A stretch of DNA of 25,954 nt from a virus, in the IMG/VR virus record IMGVR_UViG_3300025120_000480, positions 1-25,954 of that record; one strand, 5' to 3'. A program made the translations under genes and the position numbers. The notes beneath the pieces are model-generated. The model did no database searches. It saw nothing but the letters and a program-made list of their open reading frames with translations, and was not told the DNA's origin. Of the stretch, positions 1,731 through 6,790 are shown piece after piece (positions within the stretch are counted from its first letter, which is position 1; every line of letters starts with the position of its first letter).

Positions 1731-1888
1731 TGGAAGAAATAATAATTTATGTTGACACTGAAGGCGTATCTTGTATGGGCGAGGACAATAGTCATCCTAA
1801 AGTTTATTACTCTGTTCCTGAAGAAGGATATGTAGTGTGTGGATATTGCGGTATTAAGTTTGCGAGAAAGAAAGATAAAGATGTTTAA
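1730..1888 (+). CDS. CHCC-type (NDUFS6-like) zinc-finger protein, 52 aa
   Basis: This small gene has a start overlapping the previous stop (TAATG) and its stop overlaps the next gene by 8 nt. The protein reads V-S-C15-M-G, then SHPKVYY (His22), then VVCGYCGIKF (Cys37, Cys40). That is the C-x6-H-P-x-V-Y-x(n)-C-x2-C-x2-F signature of the zf-CHCC family. Cellular members are the mitochondrial complex I subunit NDUFS6 and small proteins common in Alphaproteobacteria. All four predicted metal ligands are present and the chain is little more than the domain. A phage copy suggests capture from an alphaproteobacterial host, perhaps as an adaptor or DNA-associated factor; that role is inference. Confidence 0.75.
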   Translation: MEEIIIYVDTEGVSCMGEDNSHPKVYYSVPEEGYVVCGYCGIKFARKKDKDV

Positions 1889-2552
1889 ATGTGAATATTG
1901 TAATAAAGTATTTAAACGTGAAAACACATTGTCAGTTCATATGTGCGAACGTAAACGCAGATATATGGCCAAAGAAGATAAAGATGTGCAACTTGCCTAT
2001 AGGTCATACCAATTGTTTTATCGCATAGGAACAAATGCAAAAGGTGCCAAGACATTTGATGATTTTGCATCAAGTCAGTATTATACTGCATTTGTAAAAT
2101 ATGCAAAATATTGTATAGAATTACGCATAGATGATGTTCCTGAATATACACGTTGGTTATTAAAGAATCAAGTAAGAATTGATAGATGGACAAGCGATAG
2201 AAATTTTGCGTCTTGGATTAAAACAAGATTAAAAACAGAAAGTCCAGACAGAGCTATTGAAAGAACAGTTTTATTCTTAAAAGAATGGAGCGATGAATCC
2301 GGACACAATTGGAACGAATACTTCCGCACAGTGGCGCCAAATCTTGCTGTATTTCACATTTGTAGTGGTAAGATTAGTCCATGGATAGTATATGGAAGTT
2401 CGCAAGCACAAGGGCTATTAGACAAGCTCTCAACCGAACAAATACAAATGGTAACAGACTACATAGACCCATATCATTGGCAAAGAGTAATGAAAACAAA
2501 TGCTGAAGATTTTACATGGGTAGAAGGAATTTTAGAAGAGGCAAATTTATGA
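1881..2552 (+). CDS. C2H2-like zinc-finger protein, 223 aa
   Basis: I choose ATG 1881 over the upstream in-frame ATG at 1839 because it puts the zinc finger (MFKCEYCNKVFKRE) at the N-terminus and gives only an 8-nt overlap with the CHCC gene. Cys4 and Cys7 plus His20 and Cys22 (SVHMCERKRR) can form a C2HC finger. The remainder is a soluble alpha/beta domain with many aromatic residues (FDDFASSQYYTAFVKYAKY; SPWIVYGSS; DYIDPYHWQRVMK). No known enzyme motif is visible. I believe similar zinc-finger proteins are common as conserved unknowns in marine T4-like phages. ATGA overlap with the Pol III-like gene suggests they work together. Confidence 0.85.
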   Translation: MFKCEYCNKVFKRENTLSVHMCERKRRYMAKEDKDVQLAYRSYQLFYRIGTNAKGAKTFDDFASSQYYTAFVKYAKYCIELRIDDVPEYTRWLLKNQVRIDRWTSDRNFASWIKTRLKTESPDRAIERTVLFLKEWSDESGHNWNEYFRTVAPNLAVFHICSGKISPWIVYGSSQAQGLLDKLSTEQIQMVTDYIDPYHWQRVMKTNAEDFTWVEGILEEANL

Positions 2553-3133
2553 TAGTAAACACAGATATTGACATTGATGTAGCAGATAGAAATAAGTTAT
2601 TAGACTTAATTAAACATACACCTGCAATGATTAATGACAATGGCAGACGTAAGAAGCATAACACTGGTGTATACTTCCATGAAATGCCAAGTGATCCATT
2701 TACAGGGTTAAGCACAATAGATCATAAAGAAGCAGAAACCAAAGGTTATTTTAAATTAGATGTGTTAAATGTAAGTGTTTACAAAGATGTTGAAAGTTAT
2801 GAACAATTAGATAAATTACTTGCAATGGAACCAATGTGGGATTTGCTTGAACACAAAGAAGTAGTTGAAAACCTATTTCATATACATGCACATTATGGTA
2901 TTGTAAGTAAAATGAAACCTACTAGTGTTGAAGAACTAGCGGCCGTGCTGGCAATTATTAGACCAGCTAAACGTGGGTTGTTAGGAAAAGATTGGAATAC
3001 AGTCTTTGCTACAGTATGGGATAAGCCTACAGATGGAACATATTATTTTAAAAAAGCACACGCAATAAGTTATGCAATGGCTATTGTATTACAGCTTAAT
3101 ATGTTGGTTATGGGTTTTTCTTTAAAAGACTAA
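2549..3133 (+). CDS. miniature C-family DNA polymerase (Pol III alpha/DnaE)-like protein, 194 aa
   Basis: ATG 2549 (ATGA overlap with the upstream stop) is preferred to the in-frame ATG 33 nt upstream because homology starts here. Motifs occur in the same order as in the DnaE palm. DIDID at 6-10, followed by ADR, resembles the DxD of the DFDIDF block. NTGVY at 38-42 follows. GYFKLDVL with Asp71 resembles the GLVKFDFLGL block holding the third catalytic Asp. MKPTSVEELAAVLAIIRP at 122-139 resembles the block before RPGP. FKKAHAISYA at 167-176 resembles FNKSHSAAYAL. DnaE is about 1,100 aa, so PHP, most fingers, beta-binding and OB domains are absent. Whether it polymerises DNA is unknown; a degenerate palm used for binding or regulation is possible. 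Its 3' end overlaps the convergent gene by 26 nt. Confidence 0.8.
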   Translation: MIVNTDIDIDVADRNKLLDLIKHTPAMINDNGRRKKHNTGVYFHEMPSDPFTGLSTIDHKEAETKGYFKLDVLNVSVYKDVESYEQLDKLLAMEPMWDLLEHKEVVENLFHIHAHYGIVSKMKPTSVEELAAVLAIIRPAKRGLLGKDWNTVFATVWDKPTDGTYYFKKAHAISYAMAIVLQLNMLVMGFSLKD

Positions 3134-3479
3134 TATTACGTCTTTTAATTCTTTTAGTAATACTATCACTCAATCTCACTTCAGGCCCAGCAATTACTTC
3201 CATTTGTTTTATATTAAAACTTTGGCTAGTATAACTAAACGGCCATCTATTTAAAAGTGCTATATTAATAGGCAACTTTCTATTTGTCTCCCACCACCAT
3301 TCATCACCAAGTGCTAAAAACTTTTGTCTTTCAGAATTGGTTTGAATTCTATCGTAAACATACATAGTAGCAATTTGGTTATCAATATTTTGCATAATTC
3401 CCAGATACTCATTGCCTGCATATTCAATTACAGTCAAAAACGGAAATTCTTCTAATAATGTTTGATATTTTTTTATCAT
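3108..3479 (-). CDS. conserved hypothetical protein, 123 aa (only minus-strand gene)
   Basis: The frame could start at 3533, but the Met at 3479 (MIKKYQTLLEEFPFLTVIEY) is where protein-like sequence begins; the extra 18 residues are basic and read across the divergent promoter. The protein has an N-terminal helix, beta-rich segments (GNEYLGIMQNIDNQIATMYVY) and a basic C-terminal tail (SITKRIKRRN). WWWETNRKLPINI looks like a conserved core. It resembles a recurrent unknown of marine T4-like phages; function is not known. No Shine-Dalgarno precedes the ATG. It converges with the Pol III-like gene and diverges from 3546. Confidence 0.75.
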   Translation of the reverse strand: MIKKYQTLLEEFPFLTVIEYAGNEYLGIMQNIDNQIATMYVYDRIQTNSERQKFLALGDEWWWETNRKLPINIALLNRWPFSYTSQSFNIKQMEVIAGPEVRLSDSITKRIKRRNISLLKKNP

Positions 3480-3518
3480 TGTATATATATTTATTTTAAA
3501 TTTTTTCTGTGGTTTTTG

Positions 3519-3526
3519 CATAAATA
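3519..3526 (+). promoter_or_regulatory. T4-type late promoter CATAAATA
   Basis: CATAAATACA has one mismatch to the T4 late box TATAAATA. It lies 20 nt upstream of the ATG at 3546, with an AGGAGA Shine-Dalgarno in between. The -35 region is not needed by the phage late sigma (gp55). Confidence 0.65.
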
Positions 3527-3545
3527 CATACACAGGAGAACATGA

Positions 3546-4388: not shown

Positions 4389-5396
4389 ATGAGCTTAATG
4401 ATCGACTACGTTAGAAATCTGGTTCCAGTTAACTGGAAACAAAGTCCAAGTGGCTGGACTTCTGGAAATTGTCCTATGTGTATAACAAATGGACAATCAA
4501 GACCAGATACACGTGGACGAGGTGGTTTTCATTTTGAAGATGATAAATTTCAATATCATTGTTTTAATTGTCATTATAAAACAGGGTTTTCGCCTGGTAA
4601 TAAAATTAATGATAGATTAAAAAAACTATTAGTGCAATTTGGTGCAGATCCTACACAAGTGCAACGGTTACAACTAGAGTTGTTACGTGAACAAGATATT
4701 GCACAAACATTAATGGTGCAAGAGCGTAGAAAGACACTAGTAATTGATTGGCCTACAGTAGCATTGCCAGACGATGCTAAACCTTTTATGGAACATACAC
4801 CAACTACTGATTGGACAGAAGCAGTAACATATCTAACAGATAGAGGATTTGATATAACAGATCCTAGGCTGATGTATAGCCCTGCTAAATTGCCTGCTAG
4901 AATGTTCAAACGTTTTGTAGTTCCATTTTATTATAAAGGTAATGTTGTAGGATATACAGCAAGATGGATAGGTAATCCACCAGATAAAATGCCAAAATAT
5001 TTTAATCAACAACCACCTAAAAATTTTGTGTATGGATTGGATAGACAGCATGCTGACAAAGAAATTGTTATATTGACAGAAGGCCCATTAGATGCTATAA
5101 TAACAGATGGAATCAGTGCAGGCACTAATACTATTAGCGATGAACAAGCAGACGTTATTTTAAGTTTAAACAAACAAATTGTTGTGTTACCTGATGCCGA
5201 TAAGGCAGGCATGCAAATGGTTAACGCAGCAGTTAAGTATGGTTGGAGTGTTGCATTTCCTGAATGGGAAGATTGCAATGATGCCGGCGATGCCTTAACA
5301 AAATACGGTAGATTATTTACAGTGCGTAGTATATTAAATAGTGCGGTAAGTAACCCAACAAAAATACAAGTTTTAGGAAGGAATTATTGTAAATGA
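4389..5396 (+). CDS. 61: DNA primase (T4 gp61-like)
   Basis: This 335-aa primase makes RNA primers for lagging-strand synthesis together with the gp41 helicase encoded next. It has an N-terminal zinc ribbon (C28-PM-C31 and C58-FN-C61) and a central basic region. A TOPRIM domain follows with Glu231 in LTEGPLDAI and Asp269/Asp271 in VVLPDADKAGMQ. Length agrees with T4 gp61 (about 340 aa). The first Met (4389) and Met4 (4398) are both possible starts; neither has a Shine-Dalgarno, which is unusual here. The gene overlaps gp41 by 4 nt (ATGA). A perfect sigma70 consensus lies inside its TOPRIM codons at 5073-5101. Confidence 0.93.
   Translation: MSLMIDYVRNLVPVNWKQSPSGWTSGNCPMCITNGQSRPDTRGRGGFHFEDDKFQYHCFNCHYKTGFSPGNKINDRLKKLLVQFGADPTQVQRLQLELLREQDIAQTLMVQERRKTLVIDWPTVALPDDAKPFMEHTPTTDWTEAVTYLTDRGFDITDPRLMYSPAKLPARMFKRFVVPFYYKGNVVGYTARWIGNPPDKMPKYFNQQPPKNFVYGLDRQHADKEIVILTEGPLDAIITDGISAGTNTISDEQADVILSLNKQIVVLPDADKAGMQMVNAAVKYGWSVAFPEWEDCNDAGDALTKYGRLFTVRSILNSAVSNPTKIQVLGRNYCK
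5073..5101 (+). promoter_or_regulatory. perfect-consensus sigma70 promoter inside primase gene
   Basis: TTGACA at 5073-5078, a 17-bp spacer and TATAAT at 5096-5101: 12 of 12 consensus bases. It overlaps the codons for the TOPRIM Glu/Asp motif. It could drive gp41 separately, with a start near 5108, about 285 nt upstream of the helicase ATG. Confidence 0.5.
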
Positions 5397-6790
5397 GTGA
5401 ACAAAAAGAATACACACTAGAACTACAAAAATTATTTGTAGAGTTTTTGGCACATGATCAAGATTTATTTGTTCGTGTAAATGGTATATGTAATTCAGAA
5501 TACTTTACAAGGGAATTACGTAAAACAGTAGAGTTCATTCAAGACCATGCAAACGAATATGGTGCATTACCAACACATGAGCAGATTGTAGCAACAACTG
5601 GGTTGGAATTGCAAAGTTTAAAAGATATTGATCCTAGACATCACGATTGGTTTATAGACGAGTTTGAAACATTTTGTAAACATAAGGCATTAGAAAGTGC
5701 TATATTAACTTCAACTGATTTACTTGAACAAGGTGAGTTTGGTGCAGTTGAGAAAATGATTAAAGATGCTGTAGGTATTGGACTTGCTAAACACATGGGA
5801 ACAGATTATTGGGAAAACCCAATGGAACGCATCGAACGTGTTCGTAACCAACGAGGTGGAACAAGCACAGGTTGGACTGAAATTGATAAAAAATTATATG
5901 GTGGATTTAATAGAGGCGAATTAAATATATTTGCTGCACCATCAGGTGGTGGTAAGAGTTTGTTTTTGCAGAACTTAGCATTAAACTGGGCATTAGAAGG
6001 ACATAATGTATTATATATTAGTTTGGAACTTAGTGAAGAACTATGCAGTATGCGACTTGATAGTATGCTTACAGGATATAATACAAAAGAAGTATTTAAA
6101 AATGCAGAAGATGTTGGATTAAAGGTAGGAGCAATTAGTAAAAAAGCAGGTAATTTACAAATTGTGCAAATGCCAAATGGTGTAACAATTAATGATGTAA
6201 ATAGTTACATGAAAGAGTTTGAAGTAAAGAACAATGTTAAATTAGATGCAGTATTACTTGATTATTTAGATTTAATGATGCCAGCACAACGTAAAGTTCC
6301 ACCAAGCGACTTGTTTATTAAAGATAAATTTGTATCTGAAGAGTTGCGTAACTTTGCAGTAGAAAAAGATTTATTATTTGCAACAGCATCTCAGTTAAAT
6401 AGAGCGGCAGTAGAAGAAGTAGAATTTGATCATTCGCATATTGCAGGTGGTATTAGTAAAATTCAAACAGCTGATAACGTAATTGGTATATTTACAAGCA
6501 CAGCAATGCGTGAACGTGGAAGATATCAAATTCAATTTATGAAAACACGTAGTAGTGCAGGTGTTGGACAAAAAGTTGATTTAGCATTTGATATTGCAGG
6601 CTTACGTATAACAGATCTGCCAGAAGATGAAGAAGGAACAACAATGCATCAACCTAGTGCAATGATGGATAAAATAAAAAGAAATACAAATGTAACGCAC
6701 CAAGAAAAAACTATTGCAGAAGAGAGCATTATTGAAGATACTGACGCTACCGACAGATTACGCAATATGTTGAAAAAAGTCAACAAATAA
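5393..6790 (+). CDS. 41: replicative DNA helicase (T4 gp41-like, DnaB family)
   Basis: This 465-aa DnaB/RecA-fold helicase forms the hexameric motor of the T4 primosome. The N-terminal helical domain (about 1-130) is followed by a linker and the RecA core. Walker A is AAPSGGGKS with Lys188. Walker B is AVLLDYLDLM with Asp289. ATASQLNRAA at about 338-347 is the DnaB-type sensor/loop segment (motif H3), and later MKTRSSAGVG carries the arginine-finger region. Length matches T4 gp41 (475 aa). ATGA overlap with primase shows translational coupling. The acidic C-terminal tail (about 410-465) is probably the flexible loader-binding end. Confidence 0.95.
   Translation: MSEQKEYTLELQKLFVEFLAHDQDLFVRVNGICNSEYFTRELRKTVEFIQDHANEYGALPTHEQIVATTGLELQSLKDIDPRHHDWFIDEFETFCKHKALESAILTSTDLLEQGEFGAVEKMIKDAVGIGLAKHMGTDYWENPMERIERVRNQRGGTSTGWTEIDKKLYGGFNRGELNIFAAPSGGGKSLFLQNLALNWALEGHNVLYISLELSEELCSMRLDSMLTGYNTKEVFKNAEDVGLKVGAISKKAGNLQIVQMPNGVTINDVNSYMKEFEVKNNVKLDAVLLDYLDLMMPAQRKVPPSDLFIKDKFVSEELRNFAVEKDLLFATASQLNRAAVEEVEFDHSHIAGGISKIQTADNVIGIFTSTAMRERGRYQIQFMKTRSSAGVGQKVDLAFDIAGLRITDLPEDEEGTTMHQPSAMMDKIKRNTNVTHQEKTIAEESIIEDTDATDRLRNMLKKVNK

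Follow-up and report, generated by a model that had tools for sequence, protein, structure and literature searches.

Polymerases of the C family coordinate their catalytic metals through three aspartates, D401, D403 and D555 in E. coli DnaE numbering, and the position of D405 is Asp in enzymes of the DnaE type and Asn in PolC (PMC3919608). In Pol III the incoming dNTP is contacted by a steric-gate His and the finger O helix, H760 of DnaE being the proposed gate (PMC8485763). The closest described phage system is that of Iyer et al. 2021 (PMC7824862), who report a split minimal Pol III alpha encoded alongside a B-family polymerase (PolB) in group 2.2 jumbo phages and suggest that the split enzyme cooperates with PolB in one strand or in repair. 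No laboratory test of a split phage enzyme was found in the literature.

The window analyzed here (the whole stretch of 25,954 nucleotides) carries on its plus strand, at 2549..3133, a gene for a 194-aa protein that probably is the C-terminal chain (C chain) of a two-chain minimal C-family DNA polymerase of the DnaE type, and PHROG 11778, Foldseek and a 47-sequence alignment support its annotation as the C subunit of a split minimal Pol III alpha. The two-chain reading draws on homology, colinearity, conservation and co-occurrence of the partner in relatives, and Iyer et al. 2021 (PMC7824862) came to the same split-enzyme view. The gene is a new marine member of the kind published in 2021 (PMC7824862), and a C-family palm fragment, which the original prediction called unexpected, is not a new kind in such phages.

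The motifs listed in that prediction, DIDID, GYFKLD, MKPTSVEELAAVLAIIRP and FKKAHAISYA, are all present in this open reading frame and in DnaE order. DIDID (residues 6–10; 2564..2578, +) supplies D6, D8 and D10, which align with E. coli DnaE D401, D403 and D405. Within GYFKLD (residues 66–71), K69-L-D71 (2753..2761, +) corresponds to DnaE K553-F-D555, that is, the conserved lysine and the third metal ligand. The finger block MKPTSVEELAAVLAIIRPAKR (residues 122–142; 2912..2974, +), which begins with MKPTSVEELAAVLAIIRP at residues 122–139, was assigned from conservation and from a profile alignment to M. tuberculosis DnaE1 (5lew), and FKKAHAISYA (residues 167–176; 3047..3076, +) matches FNKSHSAAYA of the DnaE O helix, with H171 at the place of the steric-gate residue H760. 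The corresponding motifs start in E. coli DnaE at 400 (PDFDVDF), 552 (VKFDFLG), 636 (ALFRPGP) and 756 (FNKSH), and this numbering confirmed Asp6, Asp8 and Asp71 as the equivalents of the catalytic aspartates and ruled out D8/D10 as the catalytic pair instead of D6/D8. The 194 residues hold the catalytic palm strands and a reduced finger helix. When the protein was shuffled, the ordered set DxDxD ... [KR]xDxL ... RP ... FxKxH arose in 3 of 1,000,000 shuffles. Judged by the Asp at the D405 position, where PolC has Asn, the C chain is DnaE-like and not PolC-like.

Across 47 diverse relatives of the C chain, D6, D8, D10, K69, D71, R138, P139, K141, F167, K168 and H171 were invariant (47/47), including the three aspartates whose conservation the original prediction had made a test. 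The dN/dS of the gene was 0.03–0.10 against relatives at 79–99% identity, so the gene is under strong purifying selection, and its start and stop positions are fixed among relatives.

C-family homology and reduced size, both proposed earlier, were borne out by family, profile and fold searches, and only with PHROGs, a family profile and a fold search is the homology to DnaE clear. PHROG 11778 ('DNA polymerase') matched residues 4–187 with E=9.9e-68 and the full-length C-family PHROG 405 matched with E=4e-6, while single-sequence searches were weak, with PF17657 in Pfam at no better than E=0.046 and TIGR00594 in NCBIfam at 0.075; phmmer of the C chain against the PDB matched no polymerase. With hhalign, the C family aligned to E. 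coli DnaE alone over only 42–141 at 7% probability, the DnaE side being a single sequence; the family profile gave a weak, colinear match to Mtb DnaE1 (5lew) at 414–424, 568–663 and 773–788. The AlphaFold2 model had a mean pLDDT of 90.5, and in a Foldseek search of the PDB ranks 1–14 were all Pol III alpha, with probabilities up to 1.00 for the leading matches, a best E of 2e-3 and nothing at E<1 beyond Pol III alpha. Whole-chain TM-scores to Pol III were low (0.35–0.48), a point against the reading, though a global value below 0.5 is expected for a 194-aa, deletion-bearing chain compared with one of about 1100 residues.

By tblastn (E<=0.01) the C chain had matches in 90 phage records, for the most part from jumbo phages, among them 121Q, RaK2, PA5oct, Atu_ph07, XacN1 and Phosso, with 36–55% identity to the listed cultured-phage proteins, and an alignment-based scan of viral contigs returned at least 552 stretches related to it. 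The C subunit was also seen in contigs, one of them 335 kb, binned into MAGs of Pelagibacter, Methylophilaceae, Neomarinimicrobiota and archaea; these matches are scattered across unrelated phyla and are therefore probably jumbo-phage contigs contaminating the bins.

Segment lengths and the chain end were compared with E. coli DnaE. From D405 to the GKHAGG block the C chain has 25 residues and DnaE 104, which means that the thumb is missing; the stretch from RPGP to FNKSH has 29 residues vs 117, and the index finger carrying R709/R710 is likewise lost. Nothing follows the O helix, the parts of DnaE past about residue 780 being absent, and by this comparison the C chain contains no PHP, thumb, HhH/(HhH)2, clamp-binding motif or OB domain. 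Loss of the thumb should weaken DNA binding. R390, R709 and R710 of DnaE are presumably triphosphate contacts, and their absence counts against a two-chain polymerase; K141 and the C-terminal K/R of the partner described below are candidate replacements, which is a guess.

The C chain also lacks the GRGS motif, which is present in a separate chain (N chain). When whole related genomes were searched with PHROG 405, a separate ORF of about 170–180 aa matched profile positions 360–436; it belongs to PHROG 11127, carries a Pol III alpha annotation in both 121Q (gp56) and Phosso, and scores above the PF07733 cut-off while matching only profile positions 16–95 of 260. GRGS was invariant in 57/57 diverse N chains, and the residue equivalent to R390 was Glu or Asp in the same 57/57. 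The model of the N chain had a pLDDT of 90.0 and its Foldseek ranks 1–10 were all Pol III alpha. The chain ends in [ED][FY]L[KR] in 74 of 76 distinct sequences (EFL[KR], DFL[KR] or DYLK, then stop), the remaining two carrying a few extra residues. In Phosso, an ORF of 459 aa that weakly matched phrog_405 was considered as a third piece and proved to be a cysteinyl-tRNA synthetase.

Counted without gaps from GRGS, the last residue of the N chain falls on DnaE N393 and residue 1 of the C chain on about R396, and the two chains follow each other along E. coli DnaE, some two residues being absent where they meet. The break sits in the DnaE loop between FLN (393) and PDxDxD (400), which places it after the GRGS triphosphate-binding helix and ahead of the first catalytic strand. 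With the break at this point, neither chain would have a complete active site, and it is a strong inference from the sequences that the two must assemble to work. The C chain is accordingly not the self-contained minimal polymerase that had been suggested for it, since it lacks the triphosphate-binding part of the palm with GRGS, which in relatives resides on a separate, distantly encoded protein.

In relatives the N and C genes lie tens to hundreds of kb apart, and in contigs G001, G007, G009, G011 and G013 N is located roughly 20–24 kb beyond PolB. The N gene adjoins a gp31/GroES-like co-chaperonin gene in 121Q, Phosso and the marine contig G001, and is near the clamp loader in 121Q. All five viral contigs of more than 200 kb with an N gene also had C and PolB (G001, G009, G011, G012 and G013), as did the four isolate genomes examined (121Q, Phosso, Atu_ph07 and Cassandra; 4/4 with N, C and PolB). 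Among isolate records grouped by organism name, N/C counts were 34/34 for Escherichia, 11/11 for Pseudomonas, 8/8 each for Salmonella and Erwinia, 3/3 for Xanthomonas, 2/2 for Cronobacter and 10/11 for Klebsiella. PolB (PF00136) scored above cut-off in 19/32 related viral contigs searched, many of which are fragments, and in 4/4 isolate genomes, so that the occurrence of a C-family palm beside a B-family polymerase was upheld; the 26-kb fragment itself has no B-family polymerase.

No N gene turned up in the 26-kb window, and a search with a larger profile detected it in 0/25 C-bearing contigs, two of which are 222 and 246 kb long, which counts against the two-chain reading; in the 222-kb contig (G002) about 10 kb separate the PolB gene from the contig end, less than the 20–24 kb given above for N. 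In 20 of the 25 contigs the gp31-like gene that follows N was sought as well, with no clear copy (0/20) and one weak match at E=0.006, and the contigs were read as not reaching the N locus, which fits incomplete assembly, short of proof. On none of the contigs from this phage's own clade was the N locus seen. A lineage with C alone was sought among the C-bearing contigs, and no clean case emerged.

Gene order around C is fixed, running from uvsW through several small genes to the zinc-finger gene, C, a convergent gene, a structural gene, the primase and the helicase. The zinc-finger gene (PHROG 11058; 1839..2552, +) lies upstream of C in 112/112 loci with room and encodes an N-terminal C2H2-like finger, whose Pfam match (E=7e-4) does not reach the curated cut-off. 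It overlaps the C gene by ATGA at 2549–2552, and a purine-rich stretch (agaagaggcaaattta-tga) precedes the C start within this overlap. The ATGA overlap named in the original prediction is present here, with the gene upstream in every such locus, but the gap between the matched stretches has a median of 83 bp in relatives, and tight coupling by ATGA is therefore unlikely to be a general feature. The PHROG 11058 protein is a candidate third partner. On the other side, the 3′ end of the convergent gene (PHROG 11637; 3108..3533, −) overlaps the C gene, by a median of 13 bp among relatives, and this neighbour also occurs in 121Q, Phosso, Atu_ph07 and Cassandra. It was found in 107/107 loci with room, as were the downstream primase (4389..5396, +; annotated as DNA primase in 121Q, Phosso and Cassandra) and the replicative helicase (T4 gp41/DnaB-like; 5393..6790, +; annotated in the same three phages). 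The C gene sits in a replication cluster. A 52-aa protein encoded at 1730–1888 contains a zf-CHCC zinc finger (PF10276, 41.6 bits, cut-off 27), a family known from the mitochondrial complex I subunit NDUFS6.

In the mechanism that we propose, the C chain would supply the metal-binding residues D6, D8 and D71, the lysine K69 and a shortened finger with H171, and the N chain, presumably encoded elsewhere in the genome, would supply the GRGSS helix gripping the nucleotide triphosphate; a composite active site built from two proteins is the most economical account. Without PHP, thumb, index finger, HhH, clamp-binding and OB parts, the pair would be expected to synthesize short, distributive tracts, in keeping with the missing thumb and clamp motif, and retention of the steric gate points to DNA rather than RNA products. 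The pair may extend primers or fill short gaps and then hand over to PolB. We put this role forward tentatively, from the primase-helicase cluster in phages that also have a PolB replicase. More doubtful is the full picture of one active site formed by two unlinked gene products, lacking thumb, clamp motif and the presumed Arg ligands of the triphosphate, and serving as a dedicated primer extender for a B-family replicase. Such a split primer extender would be the phage counterpart of Pol alpha or DnaE3 and among the smallest working C-family polymerases, a comparison to be held just as loosely.

The palm might instead be catalytically inactive and domesticated, with the C chain by itself or both chains together binding DNA or nucleotide and regulating or recruiting PolB, primase or helicase; loss of the thumb, of the index finger with the R709/R710 region and of Arg390 could abolish dNTP use, and these phages already have a PolB replicase. 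Across deeply diverged relatives, however, all three metal ligands, the equivalent of Lys553, the FxKxH helix carrying the steric-gate His and, in the partner, GRGS are invariant, whereas an inactive palm should have lost some of these features. The domesticated, regulatory palm mentioned in the original prediction is accordingly disfavoured; we regard it as unlikely. That the palm has the Pol beta nucleotidyltransferase fold and that template- and duplex-binding parts are largely missing would also suit a nucleotidyltransferase acting on something other than a primer-template, for instance in end-tailing or on RNA ends. This is improbable given the invariant steric-gate His and finger O helix, which contact dNTP in Pol III (PMC8485763), and the constant primase-helicase context.

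Homology of the C chain to the core of the host replicase, with N and C genes that are not adjacent, could alternatively indicate a decoy that inserts into or poisons host DnaE and so stops host replication or diverts host Pol III. C-carrying phages, however, carry a dedicated N partner that ends where C begins, the C gene lies in the replication cluster, and the catalytic residues are kept, which leaves the decoy very improbable. A length of about one-sixth that of DnaE could suggest a decaying remnant or a chance ORF, an idea to which we give almost no credence and which the conservation data refuted: dN/dS is low (0.03–0.10), related stretches number at least 552, the order of zinc-finger, convergent, primase and helicase genes is fixed in all loci with room, and start and stop positions do not move.

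If the two-chain polymerase is correct, a replicative-type polymerase core can be cut inside its active site and yet be kept over long evolutionary times, and the minimal catalytic unit of bacterial DnaE could be tested directly with a pair of proteins, one of about 170 residues and one of 194. Many large phages would then run two unrelated polymerase families together, and one would have to ask which strand or step falls to each.

Compared with the split enzyme of Iyer et al. 2021 (PMC7824862), the present system has the same C-terminal Mg2+/template unit (PHROG 11778) and, seen in relatives, the same separate N-terminal NTP-binding unit (PHROG 11127) at a distant locus and the same coexistence with PolB; a UvsW-type helicase is shared too. 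The order of genes around C matches that of 121Q, Phosso, Atu_ph07 and Cassandra. This member comes from a marine viral contig and is 36–55% identical to the cultured-phage proteins. The break point, the invariant steric-gate His, the missing thumb and index finger and the replacement of Arg390 by Glu/Asp are new here; in the available excerpts, Iyer et al. 2021 (PMC7824862) describe neither where the enzyme is broken nor its steric gate, nor the loss of the thumb and of the Arg residues. PolC, the replicase of Gram-positive bacteria, shares the C-family palm and fingers but has Asn at the D405 position (PMC3919608), where the C chain has Asp. The PolB replicase of the T4 gp43 type that occurs in the same genomes is unrelated to the C chain in fold and family. 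E. coli DnaE (1160 aa) differs in possessing PHP, thumb, index finger, the palm half with GRGS and everything beyond about residue 780, and shares with the C chain, in colinear order, the Asp triad, the D405-type fourth Asp, K553, the finger motif and FNKSH with H760.
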